A stretch of 64,000 bases of DNA from Geothrix sp. 21YS21S-2. Its GTDB lineage: Bacteria > Acidobacteriota > Holophagae > Holophagales > Holophagaceae. The stretch covers positions 3,196,001 through 3,260,000 of the forward strand of contig NZ_CP132910.1 of the NCBI RefSeq assembly GCF_030846775.1, written 5' to 3'. Made by a program: the position numbers and the translations under genes. Below are positions 4,178 through 57,407 of this stretch, piece by piece. Position 1 is the first letter of the stretch, and every line of letters starts with the position of its first letter. The notes under the pieces were generated by a model. It worked only from the letters and a program-made list of their open reading frames with translations, was not told the origin of the DNA and searched no databases.

Positions 4178-5758
4178 ATGAAGATCATCCTGCTCGTCGA
4201 AGGGGCCCGCCGGACGGTGGAACTCACGGAAGAAGGCGTCACCGTGGGCCGGGGTGACGCGGCGACGGTCAAGATCTCCTCCAATGCGGTCAGCCGGGTG
4301 CACGCCCGGTTCTTCCTCAAGGGCGGCCAGGTTCTCGTGCAGGACATGAAGTCCATGAACGGAACGACCTTCCGGGATCTCCCCGTGGTGGACCCCACCC
4401 CCCTGAAACCCGGGGACACGGTCCTCCTGGGGGAGGTTCCCGTCCAGTGGGTGGACGAGGAGACGAGCGTCCTGGCCCCGCCCGCCCTGGTCCTCTCCAA
4501 GCCGCACACCGAAGCCAAGATCGCCCTGGAGGACCGGGCCTTCGACACCTCCGGCAGCATCATGGTGCCCCATTCCACCCTGGAGGACCTGCTGGCCAAG
4601 CATCAGGCGGGCCAGGCGCCGGCCGAGGTGGAGGCGCTCTTTTCCCGGCTGGCCTCCATGGCAGGCAAGCTCCTGGCGGCCGCGGGCCTGGCCGAGCTCC
4701 TGGAATCCGTCATGAGTCTCATTTCGGGCCAGATCCCTTGCCAGCGGGGGTTCATCCTCCTGGCCGACCCCACCGGGGACCTGGTGCCCGAGTTCGTCTG
4801 GGAGGAGAAGCCGGGCGCCATCACCACCCCCATCAGCCGAACCATCGCCCGAACGGCAATGACGGCCAAGGTCACCATCCTCACCACCGACGCCCGGGTG
4901 GACCCCCGTTTCTCGGCGGGGGAGAGCATCAAGATCCACGGCATTTCCTCGGCCCTGTGCGCCCCGCTCATCGTGGACACCCAGGCCCTGGGCGTGATCT
5001 ACCTGGAATCCAGCCTCAACAAGGGCGGCTTCAAGCGGGAGGACGAGCATCTCCTTTCCGCCATGGCCAATTTCGCCGCCGTGGGCATCCAGCGGGAGCG
5101 GGAGACCCGGTTCCGCCAGCGCCTGGAGCGCTACCACAGCCCCCAGGTGGTCAACGAGATCCTCAAGGCCGCCCAGAACCTGGACGCCCCCATCCTCCAG
5201 GCGCGCCGCTGCGAGATCTCGGTCCTCTTCGCCGACATCTCGGGGTTCACCCGCATGTCCGAGGGCATGGAGCCCCTGCAGCTGGCCACCATCCTCAACC
5301 GCTCCTTCGAGGTCATGACCGACCAGATCTTCATCCGGGGGGGAACCCTGGACAAGTACATCGGCGACGCCATCATGGCCTTCTTCGGGGCCCCGGCGCC
5401 GGACCCCGACCACGCGCTCCACGCCGTGGAGGCCGCCAAGGCCATGCAGCAGGGCCTGAAGTTCATGAACGAGAACCGCCCCGCGGGCTACCCCGAGCTG
5501 CGCATGCGCATCGGGATCAACAGCGGGGAGGCCTTCGCCGGCGACATCGGCTGCGAGAAGCGCATGGACTACACGGTCATGGGCTCCACGGTGAACCTGG
5601 CCTCCCGGCTGGAGAGCAGCGTGGCCGGCCCCGGCCAGATCGCCATCGGCCCGAGGACTGCTGAAATACTGCAGTCAAAAGACTTCGTGCAGCTCAACCC
5701 CGTCTCCCTCAAGAACATCGAGCAGGAGGTGCGGCCCTTCCTGGTGCCCTGGGAATGA
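4178..5758 (+). CDS. FHA-GAF-class III adenylate/guanylate cyclase
   Basis: Soluble signalling cyclase of 526 residues. An FHA phosphothreonine-binding domain spans about 1-95 (VTVGRGDAATVKISSNAVSR, then SMNGTTF), a GAF sensor domain about 150-310, and a class III cyclase domain about 340-526. Metal-binding aspartates D353 (FADISGF) and D397 (YIGDAIMAFFG) are present, as are K393 and T466 at the purine-selecting positions and the transition-state residues N473 and R477. The Lys/Thr pair is the class IIIb pattern, which usually means adenylate cyclase. It is intact and looks active. It heads the rightward signalling cluster that continues with PilZ and chemosensory genes, though a 115-bp gap separates it from the PilZ gene. 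Confidence 0.92.
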   Translation: MKIILLVEGARRTVELTEEGVTVGRGDAATVKISSNAVSRVHARFFLKGGQVLVQDMKSMNGTTFRDLPVVDPTPLKPGDTVLLGEVPVQWVDEETSVLAPPALVLSKPHTEAKIALEDRAFDTSGSIMVPHSTLEDLLAKHQAGQAPAEVEALFSRLASMAGKLLAAAGLAELLESVMSLISGQIPCQRGFILLADPTGDLVPEFVWEEKPGAITTPISRTIARTAMTAKVTILTTDARVDPRFSAGESIKIHGISSALCAPLIVDTQALGVIYLESSLNKGGFKREDEHLLSAMANFAAVGIQRERETRFRQRLERYHSPQVVNEILKAAQNLDAPILQARRCEISVLFADISGFTRMSEGMEPLQLATILNRSFEVMTDQIFIRGGTLDKYIGDAIMAFFGAPAPDPDHALHAVEAAKAMQQGLKFMNENRPAGYPELRMRIGINSGEAFAGDIGCEKRMDYTVMGSTVNLASRLESSVAGPGQIAIGPRTAEILQSKDFVQLNPVSLKNIEQEVRPFLVPWE

Positions 5759-5873
5759 ACCGGGCTGCCTGCGCCTTGGACTTTTCCCCCGCCCGCATGT
5801 TGAAATGACCTGTTCCGACTCAAACTCAAGCCGGGAGCCCGCCCCTCCGATCATCATGCATAGGAAGGTCCCC

Positions 5874-6269
5874 ATGTCCTCCGAACGCCGAAACTACCGA
5901 AGGATCCCAGGTGGCGCCACCGTGGGCTTCCAGGAGCTCTCCTTCGCCCGGGAGCCGGAGCCCGCCACCAGCGTCTACGGCGACATCTCCGGCGGCGGCC
6001 TCCTGCTGAACTCCCCCAGGGAGCTTCCCCTCGAGACCCTCCTGAAGCTGGAGATCCGGGTACCGGGCTGGGGCAGGCACCAGAACCACTTCGGCCCCGC
6101 GGCCGAGGCGGACCTGAGGCCCCTGGTGGCCGTCGGGAAAGTCGTCCGGGTGGAACACCTCGAAAGCGGCGAGTATGAACTTGGGGTAAAATTCCTCAAC
6201 GTATATCCGGATGATCAGGCGGCCCTGATGAAGTTCATCGAGGCCGCCGCAATGGCGGAAGAGAAGTAG
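5874..6269 (+). CDS. PilZ-domain protein
   Basis: Probable c-di-GMP receptor of 131 residues. The N-terminal RRNYRRIP supplies the arginines of the RxxxR motif and DISGGGLLL matches the D/NxSxxG motif that binds c-di-GMP. The ATG at 5874 is chosen because AGGAAGG lies just upstream; an in-frame ATG at 5805 would add 23 residues that do not resemble the family. It stands alone without an enzymatic domain and sits 24 bp before the cheY-like gene, suggesting a link between c-di-GMP and this chemosensory pathway. Confidence 0.88.
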   Translation: MSSERRNYRRIPGGATVGFQELSFAREPEPATSVYGDISGGGLLLNSPRELPLETLLKLEIRVPGWGRHQNHFGPAAEADLRPLVAVGKVVRVEHLESGEYELGVKFLNVYPDDQAALMKFIEAAAMAEEK

Positions 6270-6293: not shown

Positions 6294-6650
6294 TTGAAGA
6301 TCCTAATCGTGGACGACTCTTCGACGATGCGCCGCATCATCATCAACACCCTTTCCCGCATCGGCTATACCGACGTGGTGGAAGGGGAGCACGGCAAGGC
6401 CGGCCTTGAAAAGCTCGCCCAGGGCGGTGTCGAGATGATCATCACCGACTGGAACATGCCGGAGATGGACGGCCTGGAGTTCGTCCAGACGGTGCGCGGC
6501 CAGAACAGCACGATCCCCATCCTCATGGTCACCACCAACGCCGCCAAGGAGGACATCGTCCAGGCCCTCCAGGCCGGCGTGAACAACTACGTGGTCAAGC
6601 CCTTCACGCCCGAGACGCTCAAGGAAAAGATCGAGTCCCTGCTCGGCTAG
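6294..6650 (+). CDS. cheY: CheY-type response regulator
   Basis: Single-domain receiver of 118 residues. The acidic pocket D7/D8, phospho-acceptor D52 (TDWNMPEMDG), switch threonine T80/T81 and K102 (VVKPF) are all present, so it should be phosphorylated by the CheA encoded 2 kb downstream. The start is TTG at 6294, preceded by a strong AAAAGGAG site. The gene ends in a CTAG tetranucleotide and is followed after 32 bp by a CheZ-like gene. Confidence 0.95.
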   Translation: MKILIVDDSSTMRRIIINTLSRIGYTDVVEGEHGKAGLEKLAQGGVEMIITDWNMPEMDGLEFVQTVRGQNSTIPILMVTTNAAKEDIVQALQAGVNNYVVKPFTPETLKEKIESLLG

Positions 6651-6682: not shown

Positions 6683-7252
6683 ATGGATCAGTCCGAAATC
6701 GACGCCCTCATGAAGAACGCGCCGGCCAAGCCCGGCAAGGCCAAGAAGGAGGCCGCGCCCGCCAAGGCGCCGGAGGGCACGGCCCCGGACGCCCAGGGCC
6801 ACGTGATCTCCGAACTGGACGCCGTCACGGCCGTCACCGAGCGCGAGACCAACAAGGTCATGGACCAGCTGGACCTCATCAGCACCCTGGTGGGCCAGCA
6901 GCAGTCCCTGATCACGGGCCTCATGGCCCATCCCTCCGCCCAGGACGCCTCGGTCCAGGAGGCCATCCGCCAGGTCATGGCGGCGGGCAAGGACATCCAG
7001 GACAAGGTCTACGAGGCCATGGACCTCATGCAGTTCCAGGACATCACCCGCCAGAAGCTCGAACGCATCGTCCACCACCTGCGCCAGATCCACGACTACA
7101 TCGTCGACCTCCTGGGCACGGGCCTGAAGAGCGAAGGGGAGCGGGCCTCCATCAGCCGCACCATCGCCACCACCGGCACGACTCCGGACGAGAAGAAGAC
7201 CCACGCGGATTCGGTGGTCGAGGAATTCAAACGAAGCCAGACCAAGGGATGA
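6683..7252 (+). CDS. CheZ-like CheY-P phosphatase with FliM-like N-terminal peptide
   Basis: A 189-residue helical protein. Residues 116-128 (MQFQDITRQKLER) match the catalytic helix of CheZ, in which an Asp and a Gln four residues later (here D120 and Q124) dephosphorylate CheY-P. The first ten residues, MDQSEIDALM, resemble the extreme N-terminus of FliM (SQAEIDALL), the peptide that binds CheY-P at the flagellar motor. A Lys/Ala/Pro-rich linker of about 30 residues separates the peptide from the helical bundle. The family assignment rests on motifs; the FliM-like tether is inference. GGGGAGG precedes the ATG and only 3 bp separate it from the next gene. Confidence 0.8.
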   Translation: MDQSEIDALMKNAPAKPGKAKKEAAPAKAPEGTAPDAQGHVISELDAVTAVTERETNKVMDQLDLISTLVGQQQSLITGLMAHPSAQDASVQEAIRQVMAAGKDIQDKVYEAMDLMQFQDITRQKLERIVHHLRQIHDYIVDLLGTGLKSEGERASISRTIATTGTTPDEKKTHADSVVEEFKRSQTKG

Positions 7253-7255
7253 TCC

Positions 7256-8764
7256 ATGGCAACAGCTGAAGTCCAGGCCAGGCAGGCCCATGAGTTCGTC
7301 CCCTCCGGCCAGTTGGTGACCTTCACCCTGGACGGCGTGGAATTCGGTCTGGACATCGACCGGGTCCAGGAGATCACGCCCCGCACCGACATCACGCCCG
7401 TTCCCGGCGCGCCCAGCTTCGTCCTGGGCGTGGTGAACCTGCGCGGGATGATCATCCCGGTGCTGGACAGCCGGCTGCGCTTCCACCTGCCCCCCAAGCC
7501 CCCCACGGACAAGACCCGCATCATCATCCTGGGCCTGGCGGGACAGCCCACGGGGCTCATGGTCGATTCCGTGGCCGAAGTGGTCAAGCTGGACGACTTC
7601 ACCCTGCGCGACACCCCGCCCCTGGTGGCCGGCGTGCGCAGCGAGTACCTGGCCGGCATGGTCACCACCGGCGACCGCCTCATCACCCTCATCAACCTCG
7701 AGAAGATCCTGGATTCCTCGGAATTCGGCCACCGCGAGGTCCTGGCCGACACCTCCGCCGGCACCTCCACCTTCATGTCCCAGGACGCGGCCGCCGAGCT
7801 CGTCGAGGACGAGCTGCCCTACGTCACCTTCACCCTGGGCCGGGAGTCCTTCGGCATCGACCTCAAGCTGGTGGAGGAGATCATCGAGATCCCCACCATC
7901 ACCAAGGTCCCGGACGCGCCTCCCTACGTCCTGGGCGTCATCTGCCTGCGGGACCAGGTGCTCCCGCTCCTGGACTTCATCCAGCTCCTCCAGGTCGAAC
8001 CCGCCGAGAACCCCACCGCCGGCGACATGGTCATCCTCCTCAGCTTCGGCGCGGCCAAGCTGGGCATCGTGGTGGACGGCATCCAGGAGATCATCCGGAT
8101 CCGGGAGGAGGACATCCTCCCGCCCCCCCAGACCCTCAGCGAGCGCGAGAGCCGCGACCTGGAGGGCGTGGTGGTGCGCTCCGACCGCATGGTGAGCCTG
8201 CTCAAGGTGCTGGACATCATCACGGGCGAGGACCAGGCCAAGATCGCCGCCATGAGCACCAGCCTCATCCAGGAGACCAAGGAGGACCACGCCGACAGCT
8301 TCGAGCTGCCGCTGGTCGTCTTCCGCCTGGGCCCCGAGGCCTACTCCCTGCGCCTCCACGAGGTGCGGGAGATCATCATGGTCAGCAACATCACCCCCGT
8401 GCCCCGCGCGCCCTCCTTCATCGAAGGCGTGCTGAACCTCCGGGGCGAGGTCATGCCGGTCATCGACCTGCGCGAGCGCTTCGGACTGGAGCGCCAGGCC
8501 GCCACCAACCTGTCCCGCATCGTCATCACCCCCATCGGCGGGGTCTCCACCGGGCTGGTGGTGGATTCCGTGGACGAGGTGAAGTCCGTCGATCAGCGGC
8601 GCCTGGAGGAGCCCCCCAAGGTGACCGCCGTGGGCGCCAACACCTTCATCGAGAAGGTGGCCCGCACGGACCAGGGCGTCGTGTTCCTGCTCAACGTCCA
8701 ACGCCTCCTCACCGATGTGGAGGGCCAGCAGCTGCAGGTCTTCCAGGGAAAGAAAAAAGGCTGA
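7256..8764 (+). CDS. Triple-CheW scaffold protein
   Basis: A 502-residue cytoplasmic adaptor made of three consecutive CheW domains, about residues 17-160, 180-330 and 345-490. Each carries the CheW signature (VPDAPPYVLGVICLRDQVLP, or close variants APSFVLGVVNLRGMIIP and APSFIEGVLNLRGEVMP). CheW domains bridge receptors and CheA; a three-domain protein could cross-link array units or bind several receptors at once. It lies between the CheZ-like gene and cheA with 3-bp gaps on both sides, so one transcript and near-stoichiometric expression are likely. No enzymatic residues are visible. Confidence 0.93.
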   Translation: MATAEVQARQAHEFVPSGQLVTFTLDGVEFGLDIDRVQEITPRTDITPVPGAPSFVLGVVNLRGMIIPVLDSRLRFHLPPKPPTDKTRIIILGLAGQPTGLMVDSVAEVVKLDDFTLRDTPPLVAGVRSEYLAGMVTTGDRLITLINLEKILDSSEFGHREVLADTSAGTSTFMSQDAAAELVEDELPYVTFTLGRESFGIDLKLVEEIIEIPTITKVPDAPPYVLGVICLRDQVLPLLDFIQLLQVEPAENPTAGDMVILLSFGAAKLGIVVDGIQEIIRIREEDILPPPQTLSERESRDLEGVVVRSDRMVSLLKVLDIITGEDQAKIAAMSTSLIQETKEDHADSFELPLVVFRLGPEAYSLRLHEVREIIMVSNITPVPRAPSFIEGVLNLRGEVMPVIDLRERFGLERQAATNLSRIVITPIGGVSTGLVVDSVDEVKSVDQRRLEEPPKVTAVGANTFIEKVARTDQGVVFLLNVQRLLTDVEGQQLQVFQGKKKG

Positions 8765-8767
8765 ACC

Positions 8768-10894
8768 ATGAGCGAATTCTCCCTGGACGACCCCAGCTTC
8801 TATGAAGACTTCCTCGTCGAGGCCGGCGAGCACTTCGAGCTCATCGAGCAGAACTTCCTGACCCTGGAGGAGGCCCCGGGCGACCTGGAGATCCTCAACG
8901 CCATCTTCCGGTCCGTGCACACCATCAAGGGGGCCTCGGGCTTCCTGGGCCTGGCCAAGGTCCAGGCGCTGGCCCACATCGGCGAGAACATCCTGGACGA
9001 CCTGCGCAAGGGCCGCATGAAGGTGAGCCCCGAGGTGATGGAGGTGCTCTTCGAGACCGAGGACACGCTCAAGGTGCTGGTGAACGACGTGGCCGTGAAC
9101 CTGCGCAAGCAGGGCGCGCCGGCCGATCCCGACACGTCCGGCCTCATCGCCCGCCTCGAGGCCCTCAAGGGCGGCGGGGCCAAGGCCGCGGCCCCGGCCC
9201 CCGTGGCAGCCGTATCCGCGGCGGCCAAGGCCCAGGGCCTCCGGGTGCCCCCGGGCCTCGAGGAGATGGACAGCGAGGCCATCCAGGCCGCGGAGGAGGC
9301 CCTGGCCCAGGGCGTTCCCGTCATGGCCCTGAAGGTCCGCCTCCTGCCCGAACTCCTGGGCACCCCCTTCAACCCCCTGTCCATGATCTCCATGGTCGAC
9401 CTGGTCGGCCGCATGATCCACTCGTCCAAGATCATGAAGGACATGGACCTGGACGAGTTCCGTCCCGAGGAGCTGCCTTTCGGCCTCCTCCTTCTGCTCA
9501 CGCCCGCCGAGACCCCCGAATCCGTGCGCAAGCTCTTCGACGGCGTCAAGTACGTGTCCATCGAGTACTTCGACCTGACCCTGGGCGAGGCGCCCGTGGC
9601 CGAGGCGCCCGAGGCCCCCGCCGCCGGCCCCGTGGCCGAGGCCCGCAAGGTCCAGGACAAGCCCCAGGACACCAGCAAGGCCGTGAACGACACCATCCGC
9701 GTGAGCCAGGCCAAGCTGGACAACTTCATGAACACCGTGGCCGAGCTGATCATCAGCAAGACCATGATCGCCCATATCGTGGAGCGCCTGGAGGGCGAGG
9801 CCCTCACCCCCGGCGCCGACGCGCTGGTCAAGGAGCTGCGCCGCTCCTCGGTCTACCTGGACCAGGTGAGCAAGGAGATCCAGGCCTCGGTGCTGGGCAT
9901 CCGCATGGTGCCCGTGAAGACCATCTTCACCAAGTTCCCCCGCATGCTCCGCGACCTGGCCAAGGCCTCCGGCAAGAAGATCGAGCTGCAGATGGTGGGC
10001 GAGGACACGGAAATCGACAAGAGCCTCATCGAGGAGCTCAGCGATCCCCTCATCCACCTCATCCGCAACAGCGCCGACCACGGCATCGAGATGCCCGACG
10101 TGCGCGCGGGTTCGGGCAAGTCCGAGACCGGCACGGTCGTGCTCAGGGCCCGCCACGAAGGCGATTCCGTCCTGGTGGAGATCGAGGACGACGGCAAGGG
10201 CATCAACCCCGCCGTGATCCGCTCCAAGGCCGTGGAGAAGGGCATCCTCACGCCCGAGAAGGCCGAGAGCATCACCGACGACGAGGCCATCAACCTCATC
10301 TTCCTGCCGGGCTTCTCCACCGCCAAGCAGGTCACCGACATCAGCGGCCGCGGCGTGGGCATGGACGTGGTCAAGTCCAATGTCCGCAAGCTCAACGGCA
10401 GCGTCTCCGTCACCAGCTCCGTGGGCCGCGGCTCCATCTTCACCATCAAGCTGCCCCTGACGCTCGCGATCATCGACGCGCTCCTCATGCGCAGCGGCGG
10501 CCAGGTCTTCGCGCTCCCGGGCACGGCCGTGGAGGAGACCCTCCTGGTGCCCAAGGAGACCCTCAGCCACCTCACCCGCCGCAAGGCCATCAACCTCCGG
10601 GGCGAGGTGCTGGGCGTCACCCGCCTCAGCGACCTGCTGCACTTCAAGCAGAGCTCCGTCGAGCTGCTGGAGGACGAGGAGCTGCCCGTGGTGGTGGTCT
10701 CCACCGGCGGCCGGCGCATGGGCGTGATCGTGGACGCCTTCCTCCGCCGCCAGGAGATGGTGATCAAGCCCCTGGCCCCCTACCTCGCCAGCCTCCCGGG
10801 CATTTCCGGCGCCAGCATCATGGGCGACGGCGGGGTCGTGCTGATCCTCGACCCGGCCGAGCTCCTCATGCTCGCCGTCCAGGAGGGCCTGTGA
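8768..10894 (+). CDS. cheA: Chemotaxis histidine kinase CheA
   Basis: Sensor kinase of a chemosensory array, 708 residues. It has an N-terminal HPt domain with phospho-accepting H51 (SVHTIKGASGFLGL), an Ala/Pro linker near 138-155, a divergent P2-like segment about 165-285, the dimerisation helices about 315-385, a GHKL ATPase domain (LIRNSADHGIE; EDDGKGINP; SGRGVGMDVV) and a C-terminal CheW-like domain from about 575. All catalytic boxes are intact. The last codons overlap the next start as GTGA, coupling it to the CheW-CheZ-like fusion. No receptor or adaptation enzyme is encoded nearby, so receptors must lie elsewhere. Confidence 0.96.
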   Translation: MSEFSLDDPSFYEDFLVEAGEHFELIEQNFLTLEEAPGDLEILNAIFRSVHTIKGASGFLGLAKVQALAHIGENILDDLRKGRMKVSPEVMEVLFETEDTLKVLVNDVAVNLRKQGAPADPDTSGLIARLEALKGGGAKAAAPAPVAAVSAAAKAQGLRVPPGLEEMDSEAIQAAEEALAQGVPVMALKVRLLPELLGTPFNPLSMISMVDLVGRMIHSSKIMKDMDLDEFRPEELPFGLLLLLTPAETPESVRKLFDGVKYVSIEYFDLTLGEAPVAEAPEAPAAGPVAEARKVQDKPQDTSKAVNDTIRVSQAKLDNFMNTVAELIISKTMIAHIVERLEGEALTPGADALVKELRRSSVYLDQVSKEIQASVLGIRMVPVKTIFTKFPRMLRDLAKASGKKIELQMVGEDTEIDKSLIEELSDPLIHLIRNSADHGIEMPDVRAGSGKSETGTVVLRARHEGDSVLVEIEDDGKGINPAVIRSKAVEKGILTPEKAESITDDEAINLIFLPGFSTAKQVTDISGRGVGMDVVKSNVRKLNGSVSVTSSVGRGSIFTIKLPLTLAIIDALLMRSGGQVFALPGTAVEETLLVPKETLSHLTRRKAINLRGEVLGVTRLSDLLHFKQSSVELLEDEELPVVVVSTGGRRMGVIVDAFLRRQEMVIKPLAPYLASLPGISGASIMGDGGVVLILDPAELLMLAVQEGL

Positions 10895-11826
10895 GCCTTG
10901 CCGCGGCGACCGGGGTCCCCCACGAACCGGCGGCTGGAGCCGTCCGGGAGGGGCAGTACCTCAGTTTCGAGCTGGCCGGCCACACCTACGCCGTGCCCCT
11001 GGCCCAGGTGGCGGAGATCACCCCCCACCGGGACCTGAACCAGATCCCCCACATGCCCCGGAGCGTCGAGGGACTGCTGGACCTGCGCGGCCAGTCCATC
11101 CCCGTCATCAACCTGCGCCTGCGCATGGGCATGGAGCCGCTGGCTTCCGAGCTCTCGCTCAACATCATCGTCCTGGACATGGGGTCCTCCAGCAACGTGG
11201 GCCTCCTGGTGGACCGGGTCGCCTCGGTCGTGGAGGCCACGCGCGAGCAGATGGTGCCCGCCAGCGCCCTCCTGGCCGGGCCCGACGGGGCCTGGGTGCA
11301 GGGCTTCATCGTGCAGGAGGAGCGCATCACGGCGCTCCTGGACAGCCGCCTCATCACCACCTTCCACACCTCCCGGTCCCACGGCCTGGGCCTCCACCAG
11401 GGCCACGACGTGGAGCAGGCCCTGGACGCCGGCCTGCAGGAGCTCATCGCCGCCGCCCCCTTCCGGGTCGAGTCCGACGCCAGCCGGATCATCCCCCAGA
11501 TGGAGGAGGCCATCTCCCACACCGAGCAGGAGATGGAGAAGGTGCTGGAGAAGGTCGAGACCATGCTGGCCGACACCGACAAGTGCTTCCAGGGCCTGGT
11601 GCGGCTCAAGCAGGAGGCCGGCCTGGGCCACATGAAGGGCCTGGAGGCCGTGCTGGCCCAGGTTGAGGCCCTGGGCACCCGGATGCAGGACGAGGTGTTC
11701 GAGCTCATCCAGAAACTGCAGTACCAGGACATCGCCCGCCAGAAGCTGGAGCGCGTCCTGAACCACATCCGCGGCCTCCAGATGATCGTGGGCTCCAAGT
11801 TCCGGGACACCGGCCTGAAGGCCTGA
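10891..11826 (+). CDS. CheW-CheZ-like fusion protein
   Basis: A 311-residue protein joining two chemotaxis activities. Residues about 20-165 form a CheW domain (SVEGLLDLRGQSIPVINL). Residues about 195-300 are predicted helical and contain LQYQDIARQKLERV, the same motif as in the CheZ-like protein at 6683, with D280 and Q284 in the catalytic DxxxQ spacing. This would place a CheY-P phosphatase directly in the receptor array next to CheA. The GTG start at 10891 overlaps the cheA stop by four bases. CheW is clear; phosphatase activity is inference from the motif. I do not know this architecture as a named family. Confidence 0.82.
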   Translation: MSLAAATGVPHEPAAGAVREGQYLSFELAGHTYAVPLAQVAEITPHRDLNQIPHMPRSVEGLLDLRGQSIPVINLRLRMGMEPLASELSLNIIVLDMGSSSNVGLLVDRVASVVEATREQMVPASALLAGPDGAWVQGFIVQEERITALLDSRLITTFHTSRSHGLGLHQGHDVEQALDAGLQELIAAAPFRVESDASRIIPQMEEAISHTEQEMEKVLEKVETMLADTDKCFQGLVRLKQEAGLGHMKGLEAVLAQVEALGTRMQDEVFELIQKLQYQDIARQKLERVLNHIRGLQMIVGSKFRDTGLKA

Positions 11827-15803: not shown

Positions 15804-15831
15804 TTGACAGCCTCCCCGCCCTGCCTATCCT
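15804..15831 (+). promoter_or_regulatory. Probable transposase promoter
   Basis: A perfect -35 hexamer TTGACA (15804-15809), 16-bp spacer and TATCCT (15826-15831) lie inside the left end of the IS701-type element, 17 bp before the transposase ATG. It overlaps the region next to the terminal repeat, where transposase binding could repress it. Confidence 0.5.
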
Positions 15832-15848
15832 ATAGGCTAGGGCTACCT

Positions 15849-17150
15849 ATGGTTGAGACTGCCGAAAGCCGTGCGCGTTTCGATGCCTACGCCGGATTAC
15901 TGGCGAAGGCGGCCGGCCATGCCGATCGCCGTGAGCCAATGGCGCTCTATTGCCAGGGTTTGATCCTGCCCGGGGATCGAAAAAGCGTTGAGCCGATGGC
16001 AGCGCGGTTGGACCCGGTGCACGTCCAGGCCCGGCACCAATCCTTGCACCACCTGGTGGCTCAAGCGGGTTGGAGTGATGACGCGGTTCTCCGGGTGGCC
16101 CGGGACTATGCTCGCGAAGCCATGGAGATCCAGGGGCCGATTGAAGCCTGGATTGTCGATGACACAGGTTTCCCCAAAAAGGGGACGCACTCGGTTGGCG
16201 TGGCCCATCAGTATTGCGGGCCATTCGGAAAGACCTCCAATTGCCAATGCGCCGTGAGCTTGTCCATGGCCTCCCGCTGGAGCAGCGTGCCCGTGGCGTT
16301 CCGGTTGTATCTTCCGGAGGCCTGGGCCAAGGACATGGAACGCCGTGCCGAGGCCGGTGTTCCCGAGGCGGTTGTCTTTCAGCCCAAATGGCAAATTGCG
16401 CTCGCCCTCATTGATGGTCAGCGCACGGACAAGGAACCTGACCTGCCCGTGCTGGCTGATGCGGGCTACGGCGACATTTTCGGTTTCAGGGAAGGGTTGA
16501 CGGAACGGCACCTCGTCTACGCAGTGGGGGTCAGCAAAACCACGACCGTCTGGGCGAACGGCAATGGGCCGCTGCCCCCCAGAAAACCCGGCGGAAAGGG
16601 ACATCCGGCCAAGAGACTGAGGAGGGATGATGAGCATCAGCCCGAGACGGTCAAAGCCCTGGCGGAGGCCCTGCCCAAGGCCGCCTGGGCGAAGGTGCCG
16701 TGGGGAGAGGGAACCCGGGGCATCATGGAATCCCGGTTCGCGGCGCTGCGCGTTCGTCCCGCTCATCGAGACAACACTCGAGCGGAAATGCACCCGGAGG
16801 AGTGGTTGTTGATTGAGTGGCCCGAATCCGAGCAGGAGCCCACCAAGTATTGGTTTTCGACCCTGCCAGAGGCCACGCCACTCCGGCAATTGGTCCGGGT
16901 CACGAAACTGCGCTGGCGGATCGAGCGGGACTACCAGGAGATGAAAGACGAACTCGGCCTGGACCACTATGAGGGCCGTGGATGGCGGGGATTCCACCAT
17001 CACTTGAGTCTATGCGCCGCCACGTATGCCTTCATTGTGGCGGAACGAAGCCGCCTTTCCCCCCCTACGATCCAATCCATCTTTGGCTTCATTCACGCAC
17101 CACCCCAGCCCGCCCCCCTTCCCAGAGGACACCGCGCCCTTCCGCCCTGA
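15849..17150 (+). CDS. IS701-family DDE transposase, C-terminus shifted out of frame
   Basis: A 433-residue transposase. Catalytic-core signatures include IVDDTGFPKKGTHSVGVA, LADAGYGD and the C-terminal IERDYQEMKDELGLDHYEGR segment with the last acidic residue. After about 17110 the reading frame ends in PLPRGHRALPP, whereas the typical family ending (FRPERHSPYSITTLRRRLER, then CPTCGK) continues in the +1 frame up to the TAG at 17275-17277. One extra base, for example in the C6 run at 17113-17118, would explain this. The catalytic residues lie before the break, but the family C-terminus is lost, so activity is doubtful unless it is a sequencing error or programmed frameshift. Confidence 0.85.
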   Translation: MVETAESRARFDAYAGLLAKAAGHADRREPMALYCQGLILPGDRKSVEPMAARLDPVHVQARHQSLHHLVAQAGWSDDAVLRVARDYAREAMEIQGPIEAWIVDDTGFPKKGTHSVGVAHQYCGPFGKTSNCQCAVSLSMASRWSSVPVAFRLYLPEAWAKDMERRAEAGVPEAVVFQPKWQIALALIDGQRTDKEPDLPVLADAGYGDIFGFREGLTERHLVYAVGVSKTTTVWANGNGPLPPRKPGGKGHPAKRLRRDDEHQPETVKALAEALPKAAWAKVPWGEGTRGIMESRFAALRVRPAHRDNTRAEMHPEEWLLIEWPESEQEPTKYWFSTLPEATPLRQLVRVTKLRWRIERDYQEMKDELGLDHYEGRGWRGFHHHLSLCAATYAFIVAERSRLSPPTIQSIFGFIHAPPQPAPLPRGHRALPP

Positions 17151-17976: not shown

Positions 17977-19083
17977 TCAACCCTTGGCAGAGGCCGTCCG
18001 AATGGCCGCGAGGGCCTGCCGTGCTCGTGTCACCTTGGCGAGGATATCGTTCGCGGACGCGGTCCAAACAAATGGTTTCGGAGCGGCATTGTGTCTCGCG
18101 ATATAGGTGTGGATCGCTGCTTCGAGTTCCGGGACGGATCTGAAAATACCCCTTCGGATGCGGTTCTCCGTGATGTCTCGGAAAAATCGCTCCACCATGT
18201 TCAACCACGATGAACTGGTGGGGGTGAAGTGAACGTGGACCCTCGAATGGCCTTTCAACCAGCTTTTGACCGCCGGATGTTTGTGGGTGGCGTAGTTGTC
18301 GCAAATGATGTGCAGAGCGAGTCGCTTCGACGTACCCCGCTCAAGCCGCTTGAGGAACTTCAGCCACTCCTCATGGCGATGACGTGGCATCGTGGCCGAG
18401 ATCACCGTACCATCCAGCGTGTTCATGGCCGCAAAGAGGGTGGTCGTTCCATTGCGCTTGTAGTCGTGCGTCATGGTGCCGCAGCGACCCTTCTTCATCG
18501 GTAGGCCAGGCTGAGTCCGGTCCAGGGCCTGAATCTGGCTCTTCTCATCTACGCTCAGCACGATGGCATGCTCCGGAGGGTCCAGATACAGGGCCACGAT
18601 GTCCACCAACTTCTCTTCGAAATGAGGATCGTTGCTTAACTTGAAACCAACGGTGCGGTGCGGCTTGAGGCCATTCTGACGCCAAATGCGTCCCACCGTG
18701 CTCTCGCTCACCCCGGTGGCCTGCGCCATGGAGGCCCGGCTCCAGTGCGTGGCATTGACGGGCTGTTCCTGCGTCGTCTTATGGAGCACCTCTTGCCCCT
18801 TCAAAGCAATCACCCAAGACTTCCGGCCTCGACCTGGGCGTTCCCTCTCGAGGCCATCGAAGCCCGCTTCCTCCCATCGCTTGAGGCATTGCCAAGCAGT
18901 CCGATGATCACAGCCCAAAGCCTGGCCGATGTCACGAAAGGACTCGCCAGAAGCTCGATGAAGAACAATCTTGGCCCGCAGGACGCTGCGCGCAGGCAAG
19001 GTCCGGCTCCGCGCCATTTCCTCAAGGCGTCTGAATTGCTCCACAGTTAGATCAACTCGCCCCACTTGCGCCAAAGTTCTCAC
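17977..19083 (-). CDS. IS630-family transposase
   Basis: An intact 368-residue transposase. An N-terminal helix-turn-helix region (LRAKIVLHRASGESFRDIGQ; WSRASMAQATGVSESTVGRI) precedes the DDE core: VLSVDEKSQIQALDRTQPG supplies the first Asp, HIICDNYATHK the second, and PTSSSWLNMVERFF the Glu. All three catalytic residues are present, so the element may be active. The start is GTG at 19083, 58 bp from the right terminus of the element. It transposes to TA in cut-and-paste fashion in characterised relatives. Confidence 0.93.
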   Translation of the reverse strand: MRTLAQVGRVDLTVEQFRRLEEMARSRTLPARSVLRAKIVLHRASGESFRDIGQALGCDHRTAWQCLKRWEEAGFDGLERERPGRGRKSWVIALKGQEVLHKTTQEQPVNATHWSRASMAQATGVSESTVGRIWRQNGLKPHRTVGFKLSNDPHFEEKLVDIVALYLDPPEHAIVLSVDEKSQIQALDRTQPGLPMKKGRCGTMTHDYKRNGTTTLFAAMNTLDGTVISATMPRHRHEEWLKFLKRLERGTSKRLALHIICDNYATHKHPAVKSWLKGHSRVHVHFTPTSSSWLNMVERFFRDITENRIRRGIFRSVPELEAAIHTYIARHNAAPKPFVWTASANDILAKVTRARQALAAIRTASAKG

Positions 19084-57084: not shown

Positions 57085-57169
57085 TGCATGCTCCGCGCAT
57101 GAGGCCGGGGAACGATGAAGGCCTCGCCGGATGGGCAAAGTCCCTCCCCGTCCCCACGACGGTTGGGTT

Positions 57170-57352
57170 AATGCAGGACCGGTCTCCGGGCTCGCACGCG
57201 ACAGGCATCTTGCGATGCCCCTGGATCCTTCCCGGGGATACGCCCCAGTGGCTCCAGCAGGGTCTCCCGGTCCATGGCGCTCGGCCCGGGGTGCATACCG
57301 TTGCGGGGCAGCGCAGGATTCAAACCTGCTTCCCGAACATCCAGCACACGCT
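57170..57352 (-). promoter_or_regulatory. Cobalamin riboswitch
   Basis: On the minus strand the 323-bp gap upstream of btuB contains the standard cobalamin aptamer: GAAGCAGGTTTGAATCCTGC (P3 region), CTGCCCCGCAACGG, GCCACTGGGG, and the B12 box AGCCCGGAGACCGG near 57177-57191. About 85 nt separate the aptamer from the btuB ATG, enough for an expression platform. When adenosylcobalamin binds, expression of the btu-cob operon should fall. The promoter is probably between 57353 and 57407. Confidence 0.93.
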
Positions 57353-57407
57353 GTAGGGGACAAGGTTCGCAGGAGGCCGGGACGAATTCAAGGTGCATAA
57401 TGGGTGC

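Follow-up and report, generated by a model that had tools for sequence, protein, structure and literature searches.

A protein in which a CheW domain is fused to a CheZ-type domain, here termed CheWZ, is encoded directly behind cheA in the window (the whole stretch of 64 kb that was analyzed), and the fusion is real and conserved. CheWZ is probably an off-switch built into the sensory array of Holophagaceae. Judging from homology and gene context, we consider it reasonably likely that the protein is a coupling-protein paralogue that places a CheZ-type CheY-P phosphatase in the flagellar chemoreceptor–CheA array of this family.

Domain composition of CheWZ

The cheWZ gene (10891–11826, plus strand) starts with GTG and codes for 311 amino acids, as supported by the open reading frame, Pfam, NCBIfam, and the homologues from the family. 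A sequence-only reading of the DNA had proposed a CheW domain followed by a CheZ-like helical domain, and both were recovered. The CheW domain comprises residues 22–152 (10954–11346, plus strand) and was recognized by PF01584 with an E value of 1.7e-28, covering positions 1–130 of the 138 profile positions. In a fold search, its predicted fold matched CheW structures with Z scores of 18–20. According to the alignment, E42 and R66 of CheWZ are the counterparts of E38 and R62 of E. coli CheW, which form a salt bridge connecting the receptor and kinase sites (PMC3828127), and both residues were invariant across 31 homologues. Pfam and NCBIfam scans found no CheR match in CheWZ.

The second half of the protein was matched by the NCBIfam CheZ model NF041271 over residues 245–304 (E = 1.4e-4), with a score of 21.5 bits that lies below the curated full-length cut-off of 350, and 29 of the 31 CheWZ homologues matched the same model individually. 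The Pfam CheZ model PF04344 gave no direct match in CheWZ. The standalone CheZ encoded in the same operon likewise stayed below the cut-offs of NF041271 and PF04344. A profile of the fused domain aligned to this standalone CheZ with an E value of 6.6e-15 (hhalign, 98.4%), and profile comparison in turn linked the standalone CheZ to its classical counterparts (E = 3e-4). The direct alignment of the fused domain to a classical CheZ profile built from six sequences was not significant (hhalign, probability 0.6%, E = 0.096), but it still placed D280 and Q284 on D143 and Q147. No CheZ chain was found when PDB sequences were searched with the fused-domain profile. Because the direct match to classical CheZ is weak and the Pfam CheZ model remains silent, the link to CheZ runs via the standalone CheZ and NF041271. 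This chain through a closer relative appears to be a sound, if informal, basis for assigning the fused domain to CheZ.

D280 and Q284 had been singled out as the DxxxQ pair, and the positions proved exact. The predicted catalytic Asp (codon 11728–11730, plus strand; CheZ D143) and Gln (codon 11740–11742, plus strand; CheZ Q147) were invariant in the 31-sequence alignment, and the QDxxxQ core containing both residues was kept in 35 of 35 fusions read. Conservation in the fused domain peaks at residues 277–287, where 9 of 11 positions were invariant among the 31 homologues versus 27 of 138 across the domain (p = 5e-6). The CheZ signature consists of F/Y-Q followed by the DxxxQ catalytic pair (PMC7750401). 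The CheWZ motif, YQD280IARQ284, fits this signature minus the preceding alanine. A plain DxxxQ occurs four times in CheWZ. By contrast, a six-frame search of the 64 kb gave just three instances of [FY]QDxxxQ, one in cheWZ and one in the standalone cheZ among them. Among the fusions of the family, a QxQDIxRQKLE block including the Asp and the Gln was invariant down to approximately 40% overall identity.

Predicted structure

In the AlphaFold2 model, the CheW domain is followed by a low-confidence linker (residues 158–196; 11362–11478, plus strand) with a short helix at residues 174–188. Two long antiparallel helices (residues 197–244 and 252–310; 11479–11820, plus strand) complete the protein and correspond to the CheZ-like hairpin, as also indicated by NF041271 and hhalign. 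When the C-terminal domain was modeled alone, the same hairpin was obtained with a mean pLDDT of 79 and values near 90 over most of the length of each long helix. In the structural check that had been suggested for CheWZ, a long helical hairpin was predicted, and the fold searches with both models returned many unrelated hairpins, as is generic for such a shape, including PI3K iSH2, Vipp1/PspA, EmrA, and SMC. The CheZ structure 1KMI was absent among the fold matches listed, which is uninformative for a simple hairpin. Hairpins of long helices resemble a wide range of unrelated folds, so fold comparison did not confirm a CheZ-specific bundle. The prediction covered the CheWZ monomer.

Genomic context of cheWZ

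The gene order PilZ–CheY–CheZ–CheW3–CheA–CheWZ was kept in all 19 related loci from 19 genomes. All genes of the block lie on the plus strand. The first encodes a PilZ-domain protein (5805–6269; PF07238, E = 7.9e-8; synteny) and the second CheY, the presumed substrate (6294–6650; PF00072, E = 3.2e-31), for which the best NCBIfam model was the E. coli-type CheY (E = 5.9e-39). They are followed by the standalone cheZ, coding for 189 amino acids (6683–7252; NF041271, E = 1.8e-13; PF04344, E = 1.4e-4), and by cheW3, whose 502-residue product carries three CheW domains in one protein (7256–8764; three stretches of PF01584, E = 4.8e-102). The cheA gene (8768–10894) encodes Hpt, dimerization, ATPase, and CheW-like domains according to Pfam. 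The tandem CheW domains of CheW3 are kept in the family beside cheA, and the middle one carries LRD, not LRG.

The proposed translational coupling of cheWZ to cheA was borne out. The segment 10881–10894 (plus strand) contains a Shine-Dalgarno-like AGGAGG within cheA (10881–10886) and a 4-base GTGA overlap formed by the GTG start of cheWZ (10891–10893) and the TGA stop of cheA (10892–10894). The overlap was present in 19 of 20 loci, and in the lone exception the script had chosen another start codon. An in-frame ATG occurs in cheA at position 9017, 3' of the codon for the phospho-acceptor His51 and preceded by a weak AAGGG, from which a CheA-short might conceivably be made. The sequence-only reading had placed CheWZ in a role instead of CheA-short anchoring. 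This part of the proposal could not be established, as the standalone CheZ had been overlooked and cheA contains the internal ATG. CheA-short replacement as the only role of CheWZ was rejected, given the standalone CheZ in the operon. Since that CheZ is already present, the fusion is an extra phosphatase-like protein and no substitute.

The window has further features. Directly upstream of the operon lies a gene for an FHA–GAF–adenylate/guanylate cyclase fusion (4178–5758), whose position is kept in the closer relatives. Downstream, two open reading frames on opposite strands (15804–17150 and 17977–19083) resemble insertion-sequence transposases by eye. A cobalamin riboswitch (RF00174, 66.6 bits) was found at 57160–57359 on the minus strand.

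Further CheZ-related proteins

The genome has four CheZ-related loci, encoding the standalone protein, the fusion, a 322-residue protein, and a protein of approximately 180 residues. The standalone CheZ carries D120/Q124 at the catalytic positions of the alignment and begins with the FliM-like peptide MDQSEIDALM, which resembles the start of FliM from the same genome, MAKILSQEEVDALLK. The 322-residue protein (L065, 1909–2877; G000:C1 about 1439908–1440876) shows a HAMP match below threshold and, after it, a CheZ domain scoring above the Pfam cut-off. It ends with VDDIIAQFKKAKG and occurs in several genomes of the family. The approximately 180-residue protein (L068; G000:C1 about 2509128–2509511, minus strand) contains QYQDIVRQKLE, has the tail ADAIIAEFF, and is kept across the family.

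Acidic C-terminal peptides resembling the tail with which E. coli CheZ binds CheY are present in the standalone CheZ and the two further paralogues, and these and the FliM-like end peptide are predicted to bind CheY here. A pattern for such end peptides, devised for this comparison, was positive on six controls, among them the three paralogues, FliM, and E. coli CheZ. The pattern search detected a CheY-binding-type peptide at either end in 0 of 35 fusions. The fused CheZ is the sole one of the four CheZ-related proteins without a recognizable CheY-binding end peptide. A CheZ from an out-of-family member of the Acidobacteriota (L097) has MDQSEIDALL at its start and VDDIIAQF at its end, so the phylum may well have many CheZ proteins that carry putative CheY-binding peptides at either terminus, as the standalone CheZ does.

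Phylogenetic distribution

A survey of the CheW–CheZ domain pair, as the earlier reading had recommended, was carried out across the Acidobacteriota. The fusion occurred in 51 of 93 genomes of the class, all 51 belonging to the 77 sampled genomes of Holophagaceae. A scan of genome contigs revealed a single relative, 92% identical, from Holophagaceae bacterium UBA692. Outside the family, no fusion was found when 396 genomes sampled evenly across the phylum were searched, and the matches listed there comprised the CheW part only. A profile of the CheZ domain gave three weaker out-of-family matches in the 396-genome sample, none of them established as a CheW–CheZ fusion. None of 207 plasmid records covered 80% of the CheWZ query, and again only the CheW part was represented among the matches listed. 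An assembly or annotation artefact as the source of the fusion was rejected, as dozens of genomes contain it in intact form.

Within the family, flhA, the standalone cheZ, and cheWZ were all present in 48 of 77 genomes and all absent in 20; most of the 9 genomes with mixed presence have assemblies that are incomplete or fragmented. A tree of CheZ-type domains grouped the fusions in one clade (93/89), which would fit one fusion event that preceded the diversification of the family, and the standalone proteins in another (92/95); the deeper order of this tree is not resolved and is affected by long branches.

A different arrangement was encountered in another genome of the phylum (L098, minus strand, genome G372). 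The encoded protein carries an MCP-signal domain (PF00015, E = 3.8e-29) and, in its C-terminal part, a CheZ match (PF04344, E = 1.2e-4) that includes the motif QFQDITRQK; it is possibly a receptor-type protein with a phosphatase domain. The joining of CheZ-type domains to parts of the array may recur, with L098 as an example. A full-text search, with subscription journals mostly outside its reach, found no paper describing a CheW–CheZ fusion. We judge CheW–CheZ to be a new combination of known domains that is clade-restricted and conserved; databases may list the architecture uncommented.

A possible role for CheWZ

Of the idea that CheWZ fixes a phosphatase at the array without CheA-short, one part was supported, the physical link between a CheZ-type domain and an array coupling domain, by homology, the invariant catalytic residues, the conserved operon, and the co-occurrence with flagella. 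An array phosphatase is the direction in which the CheW match and fold, E42/R66, the CheZ homology, the invariant D280/Q284, the predicted hairpin, the operon, the co-occurrence with flagella and the standalone CheZ, and the absence of a tether point. In such an arrangement, the CheW half would occupy positions in the CheA-P5/CheW rings or in CheW-only rings, and the flexible linker of approximately 35 residues would present the hairpin. The hairpins of two CheWZ copies would pair to form the CheZ four-helix bundle, from which D280 and Q284 would enter the active site of CheY-P. Because CheWZ has no CheY-binding end peptide, it probably acts where the local CheY-P concentration is high, that is, beside CheA, and this fixed position could stand in for the CheY-binding tail. 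A general role would fall to the operon's standalone CheZ, which is tethered. CheWZ is predicted to bind the array, to form dimers, to be catalytically active, and to divide the labor with the standalone CheZ; loss of the tether could also mean weak or no activity. More tentatively, and with considerable reserve, the operon may encode two physically separate CheY-P phosphatases in Holophagaceae. CheWZ would be bound covalently to the array, lack a tether, and act solely where CheY is phosphorylated, and the other would be a diffusible CheZ whose FliM-like start binds CheY.

As the main alternative, the hairpin might be chiefly structural, dimerizing two CheW domains and so shaping or stabilizing the array, and its phosphatase activity would then be negligible; we regard this as unlikely but worth weighing. 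There is precedent in CheW-CheRlike of Treponema denticola. Its gene neighbors cheA, and the protein binds CheA, is needed critically for an ordered array, and is presumed inactive (PMC7666581). The missing CheY-binding peptide of the fused domain and the separate CheZ already encoded in the cheWZ operon would suit this explanation as well. However, CheW-CheRlike has two receptor-methylation residues changed (PMC7666581), whereas in CheWZ the Asp, the Gln, and the QxQDIxRQKLE block are invariant family-wide, even at the lowest identities. We prefer catalysis over a structural role because CheWZ, unlike CheW-CheRlike, keeps its catalytic residues.

An active CheZ domain need not serve CheY turnover at the array. 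It could work on another receiver-domain protein, or CheWZ could provide a regulated docking site or sink for CheY-P at the array. Partner specialization is plausible in a genome with four CheZ-related proteins, several chemosensory gene sets, and six CheR matches, and the tether for recognizing CheY/FliM-type partners is missing from the fusion. We nevertheless find such roles improbable, as cheWZ and cheA overlap in an operon that encodes an E. coli-type CheY, cheWZ is retained only alongside flagella and the standalone CheZ, and its phosphatase-like domain is joined to a CheW domain. Least probable by far is a generic coiled coil carrying DxxxQ by chance. The four plain DxxxQ occurrences in CheWZ and the many unrelated helical hairpins from the fold searches would be compatible with it, but the profile homology to the standalone CheZ, the CheZ model matched by nearly all members, and the invariance of the longer CheZ signature argue strongly against it.

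Comparison with related chemotaxis proteins

CheWZ as a putative array phosphatase has several points of comparison. With E. coli CheZ (1KMI; PF04344; NF041271) it has in common a helical hairpin, the [FY]Q + DxxxQ signature, and a place in an operon with cheY and cheA. It differs in being fused to CheW, in having neither the N-terminal CheZ helix region nor the C-terminal CheY-binding helix, and in a very low overall identity. In E. coli, Phe97/Trp98 at the hairpin tip of CheZ bind CheA-short (PMC7750401); the tip of the CheWZ hairpin has no such aromatics. The standalone CheZ of the operon is 27% identical to the fused domain in the alignment, and both contain the core QFQDIxRQKLERxxxH. The standalone protein has the FliM-like start and the acidic C-terminal tail; the fusion has a CheW domain instead of both.

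Similar in architecture is the spirochaete CheW-CheRlike, in which a CheW domain likewise precedes another chemotaxis enzyme domain; its gene accompanies cheA, and it is conserved in a clade (PMC7666581). This protein organizes the array and is thought to be inactive since its key residues are altered (PMC7666581). In CheW-CheRlike the second domain is CheR-like with key residues changed, whereas in CheWZ it is CheZ-like with key residues kept. A further signalling fusion at the array is found in CheV (discussed in PMC4742279), which consists of CheW and a receiver domain. The receiver of CheV takes the phosphate, whereas the partner domain in CheWZ is phosphatase-like. In R. sphaeroides, phosphatase activity belongs to the kinase, not to the coupling protein, and is not of the CheZ type. 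This bifunctional kinase–phosphatase (PMC2924250) resembles the predicted arrangement in CheWZ in that phosphatase function resides inside a core chemosensory protein. The anchoring of CheZ by CheA-short in E. coli has the same predicted outcome as CheWZ, a phosphatase held at the receptor cluster (PMC1447658). There, however, CheZ is bound non-covalently to a translational variant of CheA and regulated by CheY-P (PMC1447658), whereas the attachment in CheWZ is covalent and obligatory.

The location of the phosphatase shapes CheY-P gradients and adaptation. In E. coli, the case for such location effects has been made with models and with mutants in CheA-short (PMC1447658). With a natural covalent fusion and a diffusible paralogue, the array-bound and the diffuse phosphatase would be removable singly in the same cell. 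With CheWZ, the small set of known CheW fusions would gain a member of the CheZ type, and the protein suggests that the CheY-binding tether may be dispensable once the enzyme adjoins the kinase.
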